From: Oscillospiraceae bacterium
GTDB taxonomy: Bacteria; Bacillota; Clostridia; Oscillospirales; Oscillospiraceae
Direction: 5' to 3'
NCBI GenBank assembly: GCA_009786445.1
Contig: WQTE01000009.1
Coordinates: 3,863 to 45,052, forward strand
Length of the DNA stretch: 41,190 nucleotides
Part shown: piece by piece, positions 20,924 through 31,330 of the stretch
How positions within the stretch are numbered: position 1 is the first letter of the stretch
Layout of the letters: every line of letters begins with the position of its first letter
The notes under the pieces: generated by a model
Told to the model about the DNA's origin: nothing
The model's database searches: none
Seen by the model: the letters and a program-made list of their open reading frames with translations, nothing else
Program-made: the position numbers and the translations under genes

Positions 20924-22160
20924 ACGTCCTAGCAGGCTGATTTACGCTATTTCCTATATACTTATTTATCCTCTCTTTAAAATACTTTTCCGATTTGAAG
21001 TCAATCGTGAATTTTTTGATATGCCAAAGGGAGCTTGTATCTTTTTGTCAAATCATATTACTTTGTTTGACTTTTTGTTTGTTATGCTACCGCTTTTTCC
21101 AAAAAGGCGTGTGAATACTGTCACGGCGCAGAAGTGGTACTATGTAAAGCCGCTTAACAAACTTTTGCCTATTATGGGGTGTATTCCCAAAAATATGTTT
21201 GACCCCGATGTGCGGTCTATTGTAAAAATAAAGACTGTCTTAAAGCGCGGGGATGCTGTTATGCTTTTCCCTGAAGGGCGGTGCAGCAGTTCCATGGCTT
21301 ATGTAGGTATGCATAAAGCCACGGGGAAGCTTATTAAGAAGCTGGGTGTCCCTGTTGTTACTTGCCTTATTGAGGGTGGGAATGTTTGTGTGCCACATTG
21401 GCGCAGTGGTTTTCGGTTGGGTAAAATCAGGGTAACTTATAGGAATCTCTTTTCTGAGGATGATTTGACATCTTTAAGCCCTTCGGAGATAAATGCGGCT
21501 GTTGATGCCCGACTCAGTGGTGTTGAGGGAGCAATTGCGCCTAAGAAGCCTTTTCAGACTTTGCGCTCAAATAAACTCGTCGAGGGGCTTAATCGGATTT
21601 TGTTCTTCTGCCCTAAGTGTGAGAACGAGTTCACAATGGAAACCTCGGGGAACTCTATTTCATGCAGTTCGTGTGGCTTTTCAGCCACTATGGATAGGCA
21701 GGGTTTATTGACGTCCTCCGATGGAAGTGCAGTCGGAGAACATATCTCTGTTTGGTATGACAAGCAGTCTCAGTTTATCACGCGTTCACTCAGCGATGAT
21801 ATGAAGCCTATTGTAGATAAGGTCACCGTCAGCACCCCTTCGCCTGTACCGGGCGGCGGCACGGTAGAGAGCGGCTCCGGAACCATGACTATTGACCGTA
21901 GCGGTTGGCGTTTTGAGGGAGAACTTCACGGCGAGGATTCAACGCTATTTTTCCCGGTTGACTCCATACCGGCACTTAATTATGATGAAGATAACAACTA
22001 TCAAATTTATTACGGCGGGGACTATTATATGTTTAAGTCCGGCGACCCAAAAACGTGCATAAAGTACGTGGTTTTAGCCGAGTGCTTGCACCGAAAATTC
22101 GCAAGCGACCCGTTACTTACCGCAGGGGTTAGTTTCGGGGCTGCGGAATTATGCACGTGA
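20913..22160 (+). CDS. PlsC-like acyltransferase with zinc-ribbon and novel C-terminal domain (copy 2)
   Basis: Tandem paralogue of the preceding gene, 415 residues, with the same architecture. It has N-H-x4-D (NHITLFD, His48/Asp53), FPEG (119-122), four zinc-ribbon cysteines (233, 236, 251, 254) and the same C-terminal region (D-R-S-G-W-R-F, Y-Q-I-Y-Y-G-G-D, F-A-S-D). The frame is open from 20895. ATG 20913 is preferred because both copies then begin M-K-I-(R/K)-R-P, and GGCGGA lies upstream. It overlaps the previous gene by 11 nt, implying coupled translation. Its 3' end overlaps the convergent phoR gene by 32 nt, and no terminator separates them. Confidence 0.82.
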   Translation: MKIKRPSRLIYAISYILIYPLFKILFRFEVNREFFDMPKGACIFLSNHITLFDFLFVMLPLFPKRRVNTVTAQKWYYVKPLNKLLPIMGCIPKNMFDPDVRSIVKIKTVLKRGDAVMLFPEGRCSSSMAYVGMHKATGKLIKKLGVPVVTCLIEGGNVCVPHWRSGFRLGKIRVTYRNLFSEDDLTSLSPSEINAAVDARLSGVEGAIAPKKPFQTLRSNKLVEGLNRILFFCPKCENEFTMETSGNSISCSSCGFSATMDRQGLLTSSDGSAVGEHISVWYDKQSQFITRSLSDDMKPIVDKVTVSTPSPVPGGGTVESGSGTMTIDRSGWRFEGELHGEDSTLFFPVDSIPALNYDEDNNYQIYYGGDYYMFKSGDPKTCIKYVVLAECLHRKFASDPLLTAGVSFGAAELCT

Positions 22161-23472
22161 CTGTTGTTCCTTGTTGCTGGCTGCTTTCCAGTTGCGCTGT
22201 GCCGCCGTGGTGTTCTGTTATATGCTTTACTATCGAGAGGCCCAGACCGGTTCCTCCCGTTTTTTTAGAGCGGGATTTATCCGCTCTGTAGAAACGCTCG
22301 AAGACCCTGTCTTGGTGTTCCCTTGCTATACCTATACCTGTGTCGGAAATGCTTATTTTGCAAAGTCCGGTTTCATCCTGCGAAAGCGAAACTGTCACTT
22401 TGCCATTATCATTATTATACTTTATGCCGTTGTCAATCAGGTTGTATAGGAGTTCGTCTATCATTCTATAGTTTGCAGAGATTTCAAAATCTTCACCAAT
22501 CAACTCAATCTCTATGCTTCCTGCATTGTCGCGGAGCGAGCTGATTACAGACTCTGCCAGATCTCTGAGGTTAAACGTTGAAAACTCCCTTTCTGTTGCG
22601 CCCTCGTCGAACTCAGACAGACGTATTATATCATCTATCAGCACAAGCAATCTGCCCGATTGCTCAGTTATCCTTTTTGCAAAGACCTCTATATCCTCGC
22701 TTTTTGCCATGCCCTGCGCTATCATTTCCGATAGTGCCGATATTGTGGTTAGGGGAGTTTTTAGTTCATGCGATACATTTGCGGAAAACTCACGGCGTTG
22801 TGTTTCTGCCCTATGCTGCTCTGTTACATCGTGAAACAGGATTACTGCACCTTTTATTTCTCTGCGCTCGTCTGAAAATACAGTGCTGAAAAACACGGTG
22901 TATACCCTGCCTTCACGCTTCATCAACATTTCTACGTTTGCGCCTTTGAGGCATTTTTTTACCGACTTTTGAAACCCTGCTTCTCTGTAAATATGCAGGA
23001 TATTTCTTCGCTCCAAATGCTCACCGAACACATCACTTGCGGTGCTGTTTGCCGAAAGAATAAGTCCTGTTTCGTCAACGAGTATCAAACCTTCCTGCAT
23101 ATTATCCGTTATTGTGTCTATCGTGTCTGAACGACCTGCAAGTTCTTCGATTTTCTCGTTTAGCTCATCTCGTTGCGTTTGTATTTTGGCAGCATACGGC
23201 ACCAGCTCGTGATAATCCGTAAAGGTCGTATCTTCAAAGCTGACTTTATCTATTGACTTTACAATCTTTTTAGTGAGTTCGCTTGCCATGCTGATTGCAT
23301 TTACTGCTGCAAAAACGAGAACTAAAGCTAACAGGATTGCCACAACGAGCAGGTAAATATCGGTTTCTGCATTCCACCTCCCGCTGGTAAACAAGAAAAC
23401 AACTATAGCGACAATCGCAAAAATGCTGATAACCGACGAAATAAATAATCTTTTGAAAATTTGTTTTTTCAC
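22129..23472 (-). CDS. phoR: Sensor histidine kinase PhoR (phosphate regulon)
   Basis: Membrane histidine kinase of the phosphate two-component system. The 447-residue protein has two transmembrane helices (about 9-29 and 39-60) separated by only about ten residues, so it has no real extracytoplasmic sensor. A PAS domain (about 115-220) follows, then the H-box FSANVSHELKTPLTT (His235), the N-box LLYNLIDNGIKYN, G1 DTGIGI, the F-box FERFYR and G2 GGTGLGLS. This layout fits PhoR, which senses the Pst transporter through PhoU. The start is GTG at 23472, because the two ATGs just upstream are out of frame or run into a stop; GAGG lies about 8 nt upstream. Last gene of the pst-pho operon. Confidence 0.92.
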   Translation of the reverse strand: MKKQIFKRLFISSVISIFAIVAIVVFLFTSGRWNAETDIYLLVVAILLALVLVFAAVNAISMASELTKKIVKSIDKVSFEDTTFTDYHELVPYAAKIQTQRDELNEKIEELAGRSDTIDTITDNMQEGLILVDETGLILSANSTASDVFGEHLERRNILHIYREAGFQKSVKKCLKGANVEMLMKREGRVYTVFFSTVFSDERREIKGAVILFHDVTEQHRAETQRREFSANVSHELKTPLTTISALSEMIAQGMAKSEDIEVFAKRITEQSGRLLVLIDDIIRLSEFDEGATEREFSTFNLRDLAESVISSLRDNAGSIEIELIGEDFEISANYRMIDELLYNLIDNGIKYNNDNGKVTVSLSQDETGLCKISISDTGIGIAREHQDRVFERFYRADKSRSKKTGGTGLGLSIVKHITEHHGGTAQLESSQQQGTTVTCIIPQPRN

Positions 23473-23502: not shown

Positions 23503-24183
23503 TTACTCTGTCGCCAGCTTGTAGCCTACGTTTCTTACTGTGGTTATCAGTTCGCCTGATTCTCCGAGTTTTTTTCGCAAGGTTTTTACATGCATATCGA
23601 CAGTTCTTGTTTCTCCTTCAAAGTCATAGCCCCAGACAGTTTCCATCAATTTGTCCCTGCTCATAACAATTCCAGCATTGAGCATCAAACAATGCAAAAG
23701 TTCGTACTCCTTGAACGTTAGCTTGACGGGATTACCGCCTGTATATACTTCCCTTCGGGCATTGTCAATTCTCAGCCCTGCAAGTTCAAGTTCACTTTTC
23801 TTTTTCTCATCTGTCTGACCTCTGCGCAGAACTGTCTTGACCCGAGCGATTAATTCCAGAACACTAAATGGCTTTGAAATATAGTCATCAGCTCCCATGT
23901 CGAGCCCTTTTACTTTATCAAACTCACTGTTTTTTGCCGTTAGCATTATGACGGGAAGACTCTTTGTCTTTTTTGTGTTTCGCAGATTTTTTAAGATTGA
24001 CAGACCATCCTCTTTTGGAAGCATAATATCCAAAATAACGAGCGATGGAAGTTCCTCACTTAATGCTGCCAGAAACTCCTCGCCCGTCTCGTATCCATAT
24101 GTCTCAAACCCCGCAGAATTGAGGGCATACAGCACAATCTCGCGAATGTCTTCATCGTCTTCTACGACAAAAATTTTATACAC
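23503..24183 (-). CDS. phoP: Phosphate regulon response regulator PhoP/PhoB
   Basis: OmpR/PhoB-type response regulator of 226 residues. The receiver domain has acidic pocket Asp9/Asp10, phosphoacceptor Asp52 (VILDIMLP) and Lys104 (SKPF). The C-terminal winged helix contains LTFKEYELLHCL and the recognition region RTVDMHVKTLRKKL. It probably activates the pst operon in phosphate starvation. Two promoters in this operon carry 11-bp-spaced TTTAC(A/C) repeats of the type bound by Firmicute PhoP. It overlaps phoU by 8 nt and precedes phoR by 30 bp. Confidence 0.94.
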   Translation of the reverse strand: MYKIFVVEDDEDIREIVLYALNSAGFETYGYETGEEFLAALSEELPSLVILDIMLPKEDGLSILKNLRNTKKTKSLPVIMLTAKNSEFDKVKGLDMGADDYISKPFSVLELIARVKTVLRRGQTDEKKKSELELAGLRIDNARREVYTGGNPVKLTFKEYELLHCLMLNAGIVMSRDKLMETVWGYDFEGETRTVDMHVKTLRKKLGESGELITTVRNVGYKLATE

Positions 24184-24835
24184 TTATCTCATCTCCTACA
24201 TGTTTACCGGTAATCGAAAATACAACCCACTCTGCAAGATTTGTCGCATGATCGCCTATGCGCTCGAAATACTTGCCAATCATAATATAGTCAACAGCTT
24301 GTTCACCGGATGCAGCATCGGTCTGAATTAGCTCAATGACATCAGCTCTGATTTTGTCAAACAAATCATCCACCACATCGTCATAGTCTATGACTTTTTG
24401 CGCAAGCTCCAAATCTTTTTTAACAAACGCATCTATGGCATCTGTCACCATTCTTGATGTTGCTTCCGCCATCAGCGGTATAGTTTCGAGGTCTATGAGT
24501 TGCTCTTTGCCTATGAGGAATCTGGCTATTTCAGAAATATCCGCAGCTTGGTCGCCTATGCGCTCCATGTCCGTAATCATTTTCATGGCTGCGGAGATAA
24601 GGCGCAAGTCTCTCGCCACCGGTTGCTGTCTGAGTAGGAGCTTTAGGCACAGTGCTTCTATGTCCTTTTCCTGCTGGTCTATCTCGCTGTCCATTGCTAT
24701 AGCTTTTTTTGCTCTTTTCTTCTCATGATCAACTATAGCGCGTGTGGCGTTTTTAATCGCTTTTTCAATCATCACGCCCATTTCTATGAGCATATCATTC
24801 AGCTCCAGCAATTGTCCGTCAAATCTGGTTCTCAT
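24176..24835 (-). CDS. phoU: Phosphate transport regulator PhoU
   Basis: The 219-residue all-helical protein has two PhoU repeats (residues about 5-100 and 105-215) with the metal-binding signature D-M-E-R-I-G-D-Q-A-A-D in the first and Y-F-E-R-I-G-D-H-A-T-N-L in the second. It links Pst transporter activity to PhoR, holding the kinase in check when phosphate is ample. It sits in the standard place between pstB and phoP. The start is preceded by AAAGGAG. Confidence 0.96.
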   Translation of the reverse strand: MRTRFDGQLLELNDMLIEMGVMIEKAIKNATRAIVDHEKKRAKKAIAMDSEIDQQEKDIEALCLKLLLRQQPVARDLRLISAAMKMITDMERIGDQAADISEIARFLIGKEQLIDLETIPLMAEATSRMVTDAIDAFVKKDLELAQKVIDYDDVVDDLFDKIRADVIELIQTDAASGEQAVDYIMIGKYFERIGDHATNLAEWVVFSITGKHVGDEISV

Positions 24836-24859: not shown

Positions 24860-25606
24860 TTATCCGAATCTGCCTGTGATATAGTCTTCGCATCGTTTAT
24901 CTTTGGGCATCGTGAAAACCTGGTCTGTGTCACCGAACTCAACAACTTCGCCCAACAGAAAAAACCCGGTTTTGTCAGAGATTCGCGTTGCCTGCTGCAT
25001 ATTATGTGTCACTATTATAACTGTATATTTCTTTTTTAGTTCAAACACCAAATCCTCTATTTTGCCCGTGGATATGGGGTCAAGCGCACTTGTTGGCTCA
25101 TCCATCAATAAAACTTCGGGCGAAACTGCGAGAGCGCGGGCTATGCATAACCTTTGTTGCTGACCGCCGGAAAGAGCCAGAGCGCTCTTTCTGAGCCTGT
25201 CTTTGGTTTCTTCCCATATCGCCGCATCTCTGAGCGATTTTTCTACAATTTCATCAAGCTGTGATTTCTTTTTGATGCCGTGTGTACGCGGTCCGAAAGC
25301 GATGTTGTCATAGATGCTCATAGGAAAGGGGTTTGGTTTTTGAAAAACCATGCCGACACGTTTGCGCAGCAAGTTTACATCCATGTCTCCGTAGATATCT
25401 TCGTCATCCAGCAGCATCTTCCCGGTTATGCGGCAGCCTTCTATCAGGTCGTTCATTCTGTTGAGACTTTTGATAAGTGTCGATTTTCCGCACCCTGACG
25501 GACCTATAAATGCGGTCACTTCATTTGCCTCTATGTTCATCGATACGTTTTTTATCGCCTGAAAATCATTATACCACAAATTTACATCCGATAATACAAA
25601 TTTCAC
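24860..25606 (-). CDS. pstB: Phosphate ABC transporter ATP-binding protein PstB
   Basis: ATPase of the high-affinity phosphate importer. The 248-residue product has Walker A (GPSGCGKST), the Q-loop ([11 protein letters not shown]), the ABC signature LSGGQQQRL, Walker B ([13 protein letters not shown]) and the H-loop (VIIVTHNM). The [10 protein letters not shown] stretch is typical of PstB. It lies 13 bp after pstA, and phoU follows after 24 bp. Confidence 0.97.
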
Positions 25607-25619
25607 TATTTTTACCTCG

Positions 25620-26477
25620 CTATTGCAATCTTTGCCTGAAACGGCGTTCTATTGTTGTTGACAGTGCGTTTAACCCTAGGACCAGCGCAAGCAAAACGAC
25701 CGCTGTTGCATAGGCTTGATCCACAAACATACCTTCATTTGCAAGCGTGAAAACGTGGAGAGAAAGTGTTCTGCCGGGCGCCAGTAAACTATCGGGCATT
25801 CTTACGACATTGCCTATGGTGAAAATTAAAGCCGCGGTTTCGCCGACTATCCTGCCTACACCAAGGATTACCCCTGCGAAAATACCGGGCATGGCAGAAG
25901 GCAGTGTCACACGAAAGACAGTTCTGAGTCTGCCCGCTCCGAGACTGAATGCCCCCTCACGGTAGCTGTCGGGGATGGACTTTAAGCTCTCCTCTGTGGT
26001 TCTCATTATGATAGGCAATAACATTATTGCAAGCGTAAAACAGCCCGCAATAAGGGAAATCCCCCAGCCGAGCCAGATTGTAAAAAATATGTATCCGAAA
26101 AGGCCGTACACGATTGAAGGTATTCCCGCAAGTGTTTCGGTTGTCGTGCGAATGATGCGCACAACCTTGCTGCCTCTCGGTGCATACTCAACGAGATATA
26201 TTGCTGTAAACACGCCAAACGGCACGGCTATCGCAAGAGTCACAAGCACCATTACTATGGTTGTAAAAAGTGCGGGTAAAAGCGACTGGTTTGCCGTTGT
26301 CCATGTTGGCGAAAATATCGAAGGTGTAAGATGCGGCACTCCCCTAATCACTATAAAGCCGACCATGAAGAGCAAAATAAACACAGTTATTATCGCTGAT
26401 AGCCACATGACAAAAAAACGAATCCAGTCAGCCGGCTTTTTTTTGCGGATGAATTTTTTTATTTTTACCATGTCCAT
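25620..26477 (-). CDS. pstA: Phosphate ABC transporter permease PstA
   Basis: Inner-membrane permease of 285 residues with six predicted helices. It has the PstA-type cytoplasmic coupling loop ([20 protein letters not shown]) and the [17 protein letters not shown] segment. The start is preceded by AAAGGAG. It forms the channel with PstC. A 40-bp gap to pstC contains a small CGGC-AAA-GCCG palindrome. Confidence 0.96.
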
Positions 26478-26517: not shown

Positions 26518-27444
26518 CTACGAGGTTGGTTCAGCGGCTGTTTCCGCCGCTTCCTTTTTCATGTCGTCTTTAATGTTTTTCTCTTTGTTGAGCATCGAAA
26601 ACAGTGTGTTGATAATTAAAACAAAAACAAACAAGACGACTCCCGTTGCAATCAGTGCGCCTTGATGTAAACTGCCTACTTGGGAGTATCCCATTTCCAT
26701 GACTATGTTTGCGGTCATAGTCCGAATACCTCTGAAAAGTTCATACGGCATACGCATAGCCGGCTGGTTGCCCGCCACCATAGTTACTGCCATTGTCTCG
26801 CCTATCGCCCTACCTACGCCAAGCACAACTGCCGCCATGACACCACTGCGTGCGGCGGGAAATATGACCTTAAACACGGCACGTTCGTGGCTGGCACCGA
26901 GTGCTACCGCACCTTCATAAAGCTCTTGCGGCACGGCTCTTAAATTTGTTTCAGCAATCGTAATTACTGTCGGCAGTATCATTATCCCCAATATTATGGA
27001 TGCGGCAAGCATACTTCGACCGTCTACCATATCAAATGTATCGAACAGTATCGGCACTACGACCATCATGCCAAAAAAGCCATAGACCACCGAGGGGATG
27101 CCCGCAAGCAGGTTTAGTGCCGGCTTAACAAAGCCATATATGCTTTTAGGACACATCTTTGCCATAAAAATTGCTGTGAAAATTCCAATCGGTACACCGA
27201 GGATTATTGCACCGACGGTAACATAGATGCTTCCGAGGATAAAAGGCAGCACGCCAAATACAGGGGTTTCACGGTGAAGCGGCTGCCATCTTTCGCCGAG
27301 CAGGAAATCAAGTATTCCTACTTCACCCATTGCAGGTAACCCCTGCGCAAACAGAAATACGCATATCAGCACTACTGCGGCGACCGATGCAAGCGCTGCA
27401 ATAAGGAAGACTATACGCATTGTAGTTTCTCTGAATTTAAGCAT
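26518..27444 (-). CDS. pstC: Phosphate ABC transporter permease PstC
   Basis: Second permease of the Pst importer, 308 residues, six predicted helices. It has the motifs LLAGIPSVVYGFFGM and the coupling loop NLRAVPQELYEGAVALGAS. The C-terminal tail after the last helix (K-E-K-N-I-K-D-D-M-K-K-E-A-A-E-T-A-A-E-P) is charged. The stop codon falls inside a short G-rich palindromic sequence (26503-26520) that looks like a fragment of an intergenic repeat. GGGAG precedes the start. It has its own Pho-type promoter in the 198-bp gap after pstS. Confidence 0.96.
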   Translation of the reverse strand: MLKFRETTMRIVFLIAALASVAAVVLICVFLFAQGLPAMGEVGILDFLLGERWQPLHRETPVFGVLPFILGSIYVTVGAIILGVPIGIFTAIFMAKMCPKSIYGFVKPALNLLAGIPSVVYGFFGMMVVVPILFDTFDMVDGRSMLAASIILGIMILPTVITIAETNLRAVPQELYEGAVALGASHERAVFKVIFPAARSGVMAAVVLGVGRAIGETMAVTMVAGNQPAMRMPYELFRGIRTMTANIVMEMGYSQVGSLHQGALIATGVVLFVFVLIINTLFSMLNKEKNIKDDMKKEAAETAAEPTS

Positions 27445-27642: not shown

Positions 27643-28608
27643 TTACGATACTACATCTGACCATCTGAGTGTGCCGGTTACAAATATCTCTCTGACTTGA
27701 TCCATTGTCAGGCCCTGTAGTGGGTTTTCTACGTTTACAATAACCGCAACTCCATCAAGCAACATAGCTATGTAATCGAGGTTTTCCAGTTCGCCTTCTC
27801 TAAGTTCACGGCTCGCCATTCCGATATCAGCTACGCCTGTCGCCGCTTGCTCAAGACCTGTGCCCGTACCTGTTGACATTACATCAATCTGTACGTTTTC
27901 ATTGAGTGCCATGTATGCTTCAGCAAGCAAGTCCATCGCAGGTGCCACTGATGTTGAACCGCTGATTGTGAGAGAGCCGCTCAAATCGCTTGGTGTAAAC
28001 GCAACGGGGTTTGCTACTGCCGGTGTCCAGCTTCCTGCCAAGAGTTCTTGTCCTTCTACCGAAAGTACGAAGTCAAGGAAGTCTTGAACCAGCGGGTCTG
28101 CAAAGCTTTCTTCTGTGAAAGCTAGGAGGAAACGACGTGAGAGTGGGAATGAGCCATCGCGGACTGTGTCGTGGGAAGGATATACGCCATCGATTGCAAT
28201 TGCTCTTACTTCGTCATTCAGTGATCCGACTGAAACATAGCTGATAGCGAGTTCATTCTCTGCTACTGCGGTACGGATTGCACCGGTTGAAGTGAGAACA
28301 CCTGCTTCTACTGACATATCATCGCCTACGCCTGTTGCATCTACAAATGCATCACGTGTGCCGCTGCCATCTTCGCGTGTGAATACTGCAATTGGGCGGT
28401 CAAAATCGAAATCACTCTCGTCTGAAGGGTTTGTTTCTTCTGCCGGAGGTGCTTCCGGTGTAGGGGTCGGGTCTGCTGCCGGTGCAGGGGTTGCTTCTGC
28501 TGCCGGTGCGGGGGTCGGGTCTGCTACTGTTGTTCCTTCGTCAGCACATGCTGCAAGCATGATGATTGCAAACGCACATACCAGAATTATTGATACTCTT
28601 TTTTTCAT
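27643..28608 (-). CDS. pstS: Phosphate-binding lipoprotein PstS, circularly permuted
   Basis: Extracytoplasmic phosphate receptor of the Pst importer, 321 residues. Lipobox L-A-A-C (Cys21), then a Pro/Ala/Thr linker (about 29-60). The domain halves are swapped compared with standard PstS. Residues 71-200 are the normally C-terminal half (IAVFTREDGSGTRDAF, AISYVSVGSL, DGVYPSHDTV, F-V-L-S-V-E-G-Q-E). Residues 209-321 are the normally N-terminal half (LTISGSTSVAP, STGTGTGLEQ, ADIGMASREL, DGVAVIVNVENPL, IFVTGTLRWSDV), and the protein ends there. Standard proteins join W-x-D-V directly to the P-I-x-V-x-x-R-x-x-G-S-G-T-R strand. All recognisable ligand-contact motifs are kept, so it is probably functional. 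First gene of the operon, with a Pho-type promoter. Confidence 0.9.
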   Translation of the reverse strand: MKKRVSIILVCAFAIIMLAACADEGTTVADPTPAPAAEATPAPAADPTPTPEAPPAEETNPSDESDFDFDRPIAVFTREDGSGTRDAFVDATGVGDDMSVEAGVLTSTGAIRTAVAENELAISYVSVGSLNDEVRAIAIDGVYPSHDTVRDGSFPLSRRFLLAFTEESFADPLVQDFLDFVLSVEGQELLAGSWTPAVANPVAFTPSDLSGSLTISGSTSVAPAMDLLAEAYMALNENVQIDVMSTGTGTGLEQAATGVADIGMASRELREGELENLDYIAMLLDGVAVIVNVENPLQGLTMDQVREIFVTGTLRWSDVVS

Positions 28609-28756: not shown

Positions 28757-28792
28757 TTGACATTTTTACTCATTCTTAATAAAATCTTAATA
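28757..28792 (+). promoter_or_regulatory. Divergent promoter of the hybrid ABC operon with TTAATA repeats
   Basis: Perfect TTGACA (28757-28762), 17 bp, TAAAAT (28780-28785). Two direct TTAATA repeats with a 5-nt spacer (28776-28781 and 28787-28792) overlap the -10, again at 11-bp period. A PhoP-type regulator could bind here and repress or modulate the operon. The roughly 180-nt leader to 28972 is AT-rich and contains a small hairpin (28897-28902 with 28907-28912) followed by a T-rich tract. Confidence 0.6.
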
Positions 28793-28972: not shown

Positions 28973-31330
28973 TTGAAAAAGGGATTTGTGCGTATTTGTG
29001 CTTTCTTTGCTTTGGCAGTCGTAATGATGGCACTTGTTTCTGCTTGCAGAAATGAGAGTGGTTCCGACAATGCTATGCCGGAGTTTGTCTATGTTCCCGA
29101 AGTTGTCTCTTTGCCTTCCGAAATTGAAGAGATTACAGGTGTTGCTGCAACCGATGATACCGTTTTCTTTGCGACTTCGCACTGGTCTGAAGATGGTGGT
29201 ATTAGGGTTGTCCAGTTGTTTGCACTTGATTTAGCTACAAATGAAATATCTGAACTCACGGGATATTCGCCGCATAAACCGCTGCCCGATGCACGGGGGT
29301 GGCTTCAGGTCTCCATGACTGTTGACAACGAAGGCAATCTATGGGTTTTAGAAACCGGAAATTTTTGGCATATAAATGTGCCTGAAGACTTTGAAGGCGG
29401 CGAGGATGAACATTATCAATTTTTTGAAGACCTCGGCAATGTAAACAGTATACGCAAACTGGATTCATCGGGTGCGGAAGCTACACTTCTCAGCCTTGAT
29501 GCAATATCACAGGGCACCCAGTGGTTTAATGTCATTTCTTTTGAAATTGACAGCAGTGGCAATTTCTACGTTATTGCCATGGGCGACACTCCTCTTTTTG
29601 GCGATCACGGGTCTGCGATTTTTGTCTTAGATGAAAGCGCAAATCTTCTGTCCACTATCCCCTCTGAAGAAGGGTGGGGGCAATTACTGCGTATAGCTGA
29701 TGGTTCTGTCGCTCACTTTGGCTGGTTTTTCGACTCAGAATTTGGCGGCAGACAAATGCTTCATCCCATAGACCTCCAAACTCAGAGCTTCGGTGATGCA
29801 TTTGAGCTTCCCGCTAATATTTGGACAATATTCCCCGGTAATGAGGATTTTGACTTACTCTTCATGGAAGGCAACACCGACCTTGCCGGCTTTAACTTTG
29901 GTGACGAGGAACCTGAATTTTTGCTCAATTGGATAGACAGCGATGTTTTGGCAGGTAGTTTTAATAATATCACACTACTCCCCGACGGGCGTATCTTCAC
30001 TGCCTTACAACAATGGGGAAGGGATGGTTCGACTTTCGAGATTATCCTTCTCACCAGAACTCGTTCTGCCGACCTGCCTGAGCGGTCTATTATCACTCTT
30101 GCCGCTTTATGGCTGGACACAAATTTACAAAATGCCATTGTAGAGTTTAACAGAACCAGCACTACCCACAGAATCAGGGTCACAGATTATTCCCAATTTA
30201 ACACCTCAGATGATGCCGGCGCAGGTCTTACAAGACTTACGACGGATTTAATCGCAGGCATAGTGCCTGATATTCTCAGCATACAAGGTCTGCCTGTCAG
30301 GCAGTATGTGGCAAGAGGGCTTCTTTTAGACTTATACGAATTTATTGATGCCGACCCTGAGTTTTCTCGCAATTCTTTTGTAGAGGGTGTCTTTGAAGCC
30401 GCCGAGATGGATGGGGGATTATATTATGTTTTTTCATCATTTAATTTGAGCACTTTAATTGGGCATCCGTCAGTTCTCGGCTCTCAGCCCGGATGGAATA
30501 TAGATGAGTTTACATCTGTTATCGCAGCGCATCCGAACGCTGATATGCCCTTAGGAAATTTTACAAGATCACAGTTTTTGACGGAATCTATCACCCTGGG
30601 TATAGATCAGTACGTTGACTGGGCTACAGGCGAAGTTCGCTTTGATACCGGCGAATTTGCTTCACTTTTAGAGTTCGCGGCTACATTTCCCGAGGAATTT
30701 GATCATGCTATGCACCGACGCACTGTTTCAGAAGCTGCTATCGCCATTCCGATGCCGGAGGGTGACGGTGAAACTTCTCTCATTGCACAAGGGCGGCAGA
30801 TAATGACTCAGACCTCTATTTGGGATTTTCAAACACTGCAAATGAATTTTGCCTCTTTCGGCGGAGAACTTGTTTTTAAGGGTTTCCCGACCGAAGGACG
30901 AAACGGTCACTCTATTAGGGCAAATGGGGGGCTTGCCATAACTACAGGTGCCTCAGACAGAGATGCTGCTTGGTCTTTCTTACGCACCTTTTTGAGTGAG
31001 AGCTCCCAACGTGATATTTGGGATTTTCCGACTAACAGAGCCGCATTTGATGCAGGTGCGGCAGAGGCTATGGCTCCGGTTCCTGAAGATTTTTCTCACG
31101 TATGGTGGGTGGATGGCGTGGCGGTTGAGCTTAGACCGCTCACACAGGCACAGATGGATTTGTTTATAGAAGCAATCCGACTAGCTCCCGGTGTTGCCGG
31201 TTGGGATCAGGTTATTCTTGACATAGTCACTGAAGGTGCAGATGACTTTTTCAGTGGCCGCGGCAGTGCGCAAGATGCCGCCCGTGTCATACAGAGCCGC
31301 GTATCAATTTATGTTGCGGAGCAAAGCTAG
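28973..31330 (+). CDS. Lipoprotein: propeller-like domain fused to ABC solute-binding domain
   Basis: The 785-residue product has a lipoprotein signal (lipobox L-V-S-A-C, Cys25). Residues about 45-365 contain repeated strand patterns typical of beta-propellers (D-N-E-G-N-L-W-V-L at 118-126, D-S-S-G-N-F-Y-V at 193-200, L-P-D-G-R-I-F-T at 336-343). Residues about 371-785 look like a family 1 extracellular solute-binding protein of CUT1-type sugar importers (IVEFNRTSTTHRIRVTDYSQ, D-L-I-A-G-I-V-P-D-I-L-S, late NRAAFDAG). The start is TTG with GAGGT upstream. It heads an operon with MalF/MalG-like permeases, an HlyD-like adaptor and a MacB-like protein. The ligand is unknown; the propeller could bind a surface glycan or another protein. 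Confidence 0.8.
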   Translation: MKKGFVRICAFFALAVVMMALVSACRNESGSDNAMPEFVYVPEVVSLPSEIEEITGVAATDDTVFFATSHWSEDGGIRVVQLFALDLATNEISELTGYSPHKPLPDARGWLQVSMTVDNEGNLWVLETGNFWHINVPEDFEGGEDEHYQFFEDLGNVNSIRKLDSSGAEATLLSLDAISQGTQWFNVISFEIDSSGNFYVIAMGDTPLFGDHGSAIFVLDESANLLSTIPSEEGWGQLLRIADGSVAHFGWFFDSEFGGRQMLHPIDLQTQSFGDAFELPANIWTIFPGNEDFDLLFMEGNTDLAGFNFGDEEPEFLLNWIDSDVLAGSFNNITLLPDGRIFTALQQWGRDGSTFEIILLTRTRSADLPERSIITLAALWLDTNLQNAIVEFNRTSTTHRIRVTDYSQFNTSDDAGAGLTRLTTDLIAGIVPDILSIQGLPVRQYVARGLLLDLYEFIDADPEFSRNSFVEGVFEAAEMDGGLYYVFSSFNLSTLIGHPSVLGSQPGWNIDEFTSVIAAHPNADMPLGNFTRSQFLTESITLGIDQYVDWATGEVRFDTGEFASLLEFAATFPEEFDHAMHRRTVSEAAIAIPMPEGDGETSLIAQGRQIMTQTSIWDFQTLQMNFASFGGELVFKGFPTEGRNGHSIRANGGLAITTGASDRDAAWSFLRTFLSESSQRDIWDFPTNRAAFDAGAAEAMAPVPEDFSHVWWVDGVAVELRPLTQAQMDLFIEAIRLAPGVAGWDQVILDIVTEGADDFFSGRGSAQDAARVIQSRVSIYVAEQS

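Follow-up and report, generated by a model that had tools for sequence, protein, structure and literature searches.

The DNA analyzed here, a 41,190-nucleotide stretch of contig WQTE01000009.1 from an Oscillospiraceae bacterium (hereafter, the window), encodes a PstS protein in which the two halves of the canonical chain are swapped. The protein is very probably a functional, naturally circularly permuted PstS lipoprotein that serves as the substrate-binding subunit for the pst transporter whose genes lie immediately downstream. It is one of a large family, with about 150 distinct permuted members found, mostly of Bacillota, one of which has a solved structure (PDB 4H1X).

Order of the halves

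The pstS frame spans window positions 27643-28608 on the minus strand, where it is open and encodes a 321-amino-acid lipoprotein; the same frame on the plus strand has stops throughout. All parts of the gene are given on the minus strand, with A and B denoting the first and second halves of canonical mature PstS. A signal peptide and lipobox (residues 1-21; 28546..28608) include Cys21, invariant in 30 of 30 rows of alignment A1, and a Pro/Ala/Thr-rich linker (residues 22-70; 28399..28545), the length of which varies among relatives, links the new N-terminus to the lipid anchor as a tether. The chain then opens with the strand and loop normally found in mid-protein, PIAVFTREDGSGTRDAF. The B half comes first (residues 71-200; 28009..28398; PI.V.TREDGSGTRDAF ... 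EGQ..), running from RPIAVFTREDGSGTRDAF to VEGQELLAGSWTPAVAN. The normal C-terminus, VEGQELLAGSWTPAV, passes by way of a short linker (residues 201-208; 27985..28008) into the normal mature N-terminus, SGSLTISGSTSVAP. The A half comes last (residues 209-321; 27646..27984; SG.LTISGSTSV ... RWSDVVS), from LSGSLTISGSTSVAP to RWSDVVS, which ends the chain ahead of the stop codon (27643-27645). Across 151 permuted proteins, the gap between the ends of the B and A matches to half-domain hidden Markov models (HMMs) has a median of 12 and a range of 10-25 residues. The portion encoding the signal peptide and Pro/Ala/Thr linker (28420-28608, minus strand) has counterparts at 47-59% identity in four further frames of the same genome (G000:C158, C42, C47, and C1). 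In the one frame examined (L002), the shared stretch is near the N-terminus, as if an export-and-tether cassette were common to lipoproteins.

Comparisons with canonical models give the same swapped arrangement. In a phmmer search against canonical chain 4q8r, query residues 211-318 match chain residues 4-112 (i-Evalue 9.7e-18) and query residues 70-192 match chain residues 117-239 (i-Evalue 1.1e-21), a two-stretch match far beyond chance. Pfam PBP_like_2 (PF12849; 110.7 bits) also matches as two stretches that are in swapped order along the protein, and NCBIfam TIGR02136 matches as two stretches (2e-51) with a whole-protein score of 175 bits, under its curated cut-off of 206.6. Both halves are homologous to those of canonical PstS, with B followed by A. 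The first-pass annotation, made from the sequence of the window, had described such a swap, and in these separate alignments each half has a strong match, neither is in its normal place, and the residue boundaries that it gave (71-200 and 209-321) are correct. It had also put the new ends at a hinge crossing, which agrees with a cut that maps to the loop past the first-half W-x-x-V helix and ahead of the hinge strand running to GSGTR. At this point canonical PstS usually reads W-x-x-V-G-G-x-D-A and continues into the hinge strand, with both glycines invariant (alignment A3, 30 rows); the G-G-x-D-A turn is absent at the cut in the permuted form. Canonical Bacillota PstS proteins (TIGR02136 / PF12849; e.g., C. 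perfringens 4GD5 and 4Q8R) are homologous in both halves, have the same site residues, and are likewise encoded before pstC, but differ from the window PstS in the order of halves and in keeping this turn.

Conversely, S. pneumoniae SP_2084 ("phosphate-binding protein pstS 2"; PDB 4H1X, released 2012) has the permuted order in common with the window PstS. It is the only PDB chain that matches the window PstS in one stretch (residues 72-317, 5.5e-46), that is, in B-A order over the mature protein. A profile of 46 permuted proteins, the window PstS included, matches 38 PDB sequences at E <= 0.001, with 4H1X at the top (3.8e-104) in one stretch across the whole profile and the other 37 matching in two stretches or partially. 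A canonical profile yields the mirror image: 4H1X is matched as two stretches, the best of which places the second half at the beginning of the chain. Structure prediction and superposition, proposed in the first-pass annotation as a check, point the same way. An AlphaFold2 model of the window PstS carries the 4H1X fold with identical chain order (1.4 Å, TM 0.92, 39-40% identity), and fold alignments with canonical PstS structures span one half only. The aligned domain starts at residue 35 in 4H1X (entry numbering) versus about 71 in the window PstS, hence the tether is longer in the latter.

Distribution and origin of the permuted form

In one respect the first-pass annotation needs correcting: the protein is not a singular case. 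That it is unique to the window genome is rejected by 4H1X and by about 150 distinct relatives with the same order. The genome counts that follow take in all but the weakest matches and are lower bounds. In the taxonomic order of the window, long matches in one piece reach 3e-36 or better in 31 of 147 genomes, and weaker matches in two more (G034 and G077) are also permuted when inspected, giving at least 33. A phylum sample has a full-length permuted match in at least 14 of 398 genomes, two genomes with tandem A-B-A-B proteins (see below) being excluded. In the order of Granulicatella, the permuted form is present in at least 29 of 118 genomes; counting G644, in which the gene is divided between two contigs, brings this to 30. 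Within an independent genome collection, half-domain HMMs find the B-A order in all of the best 80 of 514 relatives, which is not a census. Bacillota account for 75 of these 80; the other loci are assigned to Fibrobacter, two Helicobacteraceae, Accumulibacter, and Treponema, fall among Bacillota rows in the tree, and are probably mis-binned. Among the 10 genomes listed for the window's own family, with 38 match-less genomes standing outside that listing, the permuted form is in two (the window's and G098), the canonical form is in seven, and one has no match. Some genomes have both forms (e.g., G026, G128, and G133; G540, G541, and G544).

Over 239 loci, several of which repeat a gene, half-domain HMMs built from permuted proteins only recover 177 B-A frames, 61 A-B frames, and four A-B-A-B frames, and no other layouts. 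As unique proteins these are 152 permuted, 60 canonical, and two tandem. Two successive permuted pstS genes head a single pst operon in L075 (5827-8011) and L099 (6001-7951, plus strand). In the window's own genome, a PstS-like domain also forms the N-terminal part of L007 (G000:C6:21696-22424), a protein of about 800 amino acids, with a WG repeat (Pfam PF14903) after it.

Trees of PstS were made with the halves aligned separately so that the order of halves is unable to influence them. The main tree has 214 rows, of which 151 are permuted and 63 canonical (59 unique proteins and four halves of tandem proteins); the G644 fragment (L219 = L239) and the divergent L007 were left out because the available part is too short. 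Permuted rows, the window PstS among them, are on one side of one branch, with a Shimodaira-Hasegawa-like approximate likelihood ratio test (SH-aLRT) support of 100 when both halves are used; the B half by itself gives 98 and the A half 40. 4H1X is not among the rows. The single branch is also present in a mixture-model tree of 30 + 30 rows (100/99; 200 of 200 bootstrap trees, with the bootstrap not settled) and in an earlier tree of 174 rows (support of 92). One change still suffices when four divergent rows are added, namely permuted L240 and L241 and two canonical proteins. No starred branch that joins some permuted with some canonical rows is forced in any of the PstS trees made. Given that no permuted row falls on the canonical side of this branch, the permutation probably arose once. 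The search for same-order homologues called for in the first-pass annotation found about 150 proteins, and those included in the trees lie beyond that branch. Since the remaining PstS structures matched are canonical, we regard the permuted order as derived. Permuted PstS genes of L240 (1437-3254, minus strand) and L241 (3667-5496, plus strand) are divergent, encode longer linkers, and are followed by a single frame that matches both PstC and PstA (606 amino acids in L240), probably a fused permease.

The permeases follow the same division. The PstC tree (142 + 51 rows, support of 99) and the PstA tree (89 + 40 rows, support of 97) each split by PstS type at one branch, indicating that permuted PstS and both permeases travel together. 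This fits inheritance and transfer of the operon and would equally fit co-adaptation; the data do not separate them. Strict co-inheritance of the whole operon is unsupported for PstB, the tree of which requires five changes. We tentatively put forward, at somewhat less than even chances, that phosphate ATP-binding cassette (ABC) transporters with a permuted PstS form a lineage of their own in Bacillota, with a single origin. In this lineage, PstS, PstC, and PstA would have co-evolved since the permutation without exchange for canonical counterparts, the reason being that docking or opening of the binding protein changed once its anchor and chain ends had shifted to the hinge.

Several points weigh against a functional permutant of single origin. 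Support for the single branch drops to 53 with the four divergent rows, and the tree of the A half by itself supports it at 40 only. At least two of the five changes in the PstB tree (87 + 39 rows) are forced. Canonical rows were picked from listings and are a non-exhaustive sample, and the HMMs that delimit the halves derive from permuted proteins only. The PstS trees are unrooted, and treating the canonical order as ancestral rests on the other PDB-matched PstS chains being canonical. Proteins with the A-B-A-B layout are placed inside the canonical side of the tree. Lastly, phosphate binding and transport by the window PstS are predicted.

The reduced support, along with the intermixing of permuted and canonical forms within families, could be explained by several independent permutations at one loop. 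We consider this unlikely; none of the PstS trees needs more than a single change, and those of PstC and PstA concur with one split. An alternative to permutation of one PstS is that half-domains of two separate genes were fused, or that the arrangement is convergent. The many unresolved forks in the A-half and B-half trees speak for it, but if unrelated halves had been joined, A and B should group with different canonical relatives. Instead, each half alone puts permuted rows beyond one branch, and support is highest for the two together, which makes this alternative very unlikely.

A circular permutation of one pstS gene most likely originated via tandem duplication, fusion, and trimming at both ends. 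In a single event in an ancestral Bacillota pst operon, an in-frame tandem duplication of pstS would have yielded an A-B-A-B gene, from which the first A and last B were then lost, so that B-A remained after the original signal peptide. The gene in its new order would afterwards have been inherited and transferred along with its own pstC and pstA. The layout required by duplication and trimming exists: two genomes of one other family (G455 and G496) have an in-frame tandem A-B-A-B PstS as one frame of 527 amino acids (L134:1105-2685 and L135:1105-2685, minus strand; also L183 and L184), the middle of which is B-A. In both cases pstC is next. Unlike the window PstS, these proteins have two full canonical domains and fall inside the canonical side of the tree. 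Thus, they show that the layout occurs, but as an independent case, and their being direct ancestors of the permuted form is unsupported. A tandem pair of separate canonical PstS-like genes is present before a pstC-like gene in L242 (2257-4082, minus strand), with the outer one truncated by the contig end.

Phosphate site and operon context

Residues predicted to contact phosphate are conserved across the permuted family. None of the 151 permuted rows departs from R78, S82, G83, T84, S218, or S220; position 219, a threonine in the window PstS, is serine in 93 and threonine in 58. We aligned R78, S82, G83, T84, T219, and S220 by eye to R135, S139, G140, T141, T10, and F11, which we take to be the contacts in the E. 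coli protein. The position of E. coli D56 presumably corresponds to S266, which is occupied by serine in every permuted row (151) and in 49 of the 63 canonical ones. The first-pass annotation had claimed that the contact motifs survive the permutation, and its claim extends to the family, with one position kept as serine or threonine. Because contact-aligned residues are kept, permuted PstS very likely functions as a phosphate-binding protein. The chain would fold as the usual two-lobed Venus-flytrap, with phosphate held by the conserved R/S/G/T loop and the SGSTS loop and handed to PstC-PstA. The lipid tether would join at the hinge rather than at strand 1 of the first lobe.

Consistent with the intact pst operon reported in the first-pass annotation, pstS heads a run of genes on the minus strand. 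It is followed by the permease genes pstC (26518..27444; TIGR02138, 296.1 bits, cut-off 196.45) and pstA (25620..26477; TIGR00974, 265.9 bits, cut-off 193.45), the ATPase gene pstB (24860..25606; TIGR00972, 412.2 bits, cut-off 343.2), and phoU (24176..24835; TIGR02135, 213.5 bits, cut-off 130.25). A PhoB-type response regulator (23503..24183) and a PhoR/PnpS-type histidine kinase (22129..23472) complete the run; their best matches are below cut-offs (TIGR02154 PhoB, 234.6 bits, cut-off 296.2; NF046044 PnpS, 288.2 bits, cut-off 400). Among unique genes with at least 1300 nucleotides downstream, the next pst gene within 1400 nucleotides is pstC for 142 of 147 permuted, 50 of 57 canonical, and two of two tandem genes. 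The order pstC-pstA-pstB follows in 80 of 83 permuted genes with at least 4500 nucleotides downstream.

These associations bear on the possibility that the permuted protein has left phosphate uptake, for example as a sensor or a binder of another ligand. Permutation could alter hinge dynamics, and phosphate binding rests on prediction; yet the near-constant adjacency to pstC, the retained contact-aligned residues, and the position of the window gene at the head of a pst-phoU operon leave such a departure little probability. An assembly artefact, in which reads from two pstS copies were misjoined into the swapped order, has next to no chance and is rejected: the window genome is a draft of 201 contigs, but misassembly at 28010 is contradicted by the crystal structure with identical order and by relatives that refute it for the family, which include complete chromosomes (Aedoeadaptatus ivorii NCTC13079 and Chakrabartyella piscis) among the 80 B-A loci, and no canonical pst-type PstS available for misjoining was seen in the genome itself (90% complete).

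A Pho-box-like TTAAGA-N5-TTAAGA upstream of pstS (28774-28790, minus strand) is exact and the sole match in the window at up to one mismatch. We do not claim it as a regulatory site; 28 of 100 shuffles also have at least one match, and the repeat shows no conservation across the upstream regions of 143 permuted relatives. A looser form is present in 3 of these 143 regions (two in reverse orientation; 0.68 expected from shuffles) and 8 of 61 canonical regions (three in reverse orientation; 0.32 expected). On the other side of this region, a divergently transcribed gene (28973-31330, plus strand) encodes a 785-amino-acid lipoprotein with an SBP_bac_8 match in its C-terminal part (residues 420-697) and about 390 N-terminal residues without a Pfam match at E 0.001. 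Two sugar-type permease genes follow, with best NCBIfam matches below cut-offs.

Precedents and implications

Circular permutation has precedents among ABC binding proteins. TpMglB-2 of Treponema pallidum, for which "Type Ic" was proposed, is likewise a lipoprotein and a natural circular permutant, and is reported to retain ligand binding and conformational change (PMC4990184). It differs in ligand (glucose), in class (Type I / Cluster B), in the site of the cut, and in having a fourth inter-lobe crossing, and is taken as precedent only. The CPSARST study reports circular permutation among glycine-betaine binding proteins (PMC2395249); OpuAC and other proteins of this group bind another ligand and are 8-12% identical to the window PstS. 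Two studies of PstS structures use S. pneumoniae PstS1 for comparison (PMC5439949 and PMC12421899), and "permut" and "4H1X" have no match in the portions of their text searched. No paper naming 4H1X and no description of a permuted PstS were found among the papers listed by the literature searches, the scope of which excluded subscription papers, PDB remarks, and structure-classification databases that may note it. The first-pass annotation's statement that it knew of none is borne out to that extent, and published accounts of the large permuted subfamily seem to be lacking.

Among binding proteins, PstS is a textbook example and often serves as a scaffold for biosensors. Family searches return two domain matches for the permuted form, which hides the swap. 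Routine annotation, phylogenies, and model building are therefore likely to misalign permuted proteins and to lose one of their halves. With A-B-A-B proteins still extant, permutation by way of duplication can be tested directly. A natural permutant this broad, with S. pneumoniae and one solved structure included, is a large experiment of nature in which the effects of chain order and tether position on hinge closure and docking can be compared.
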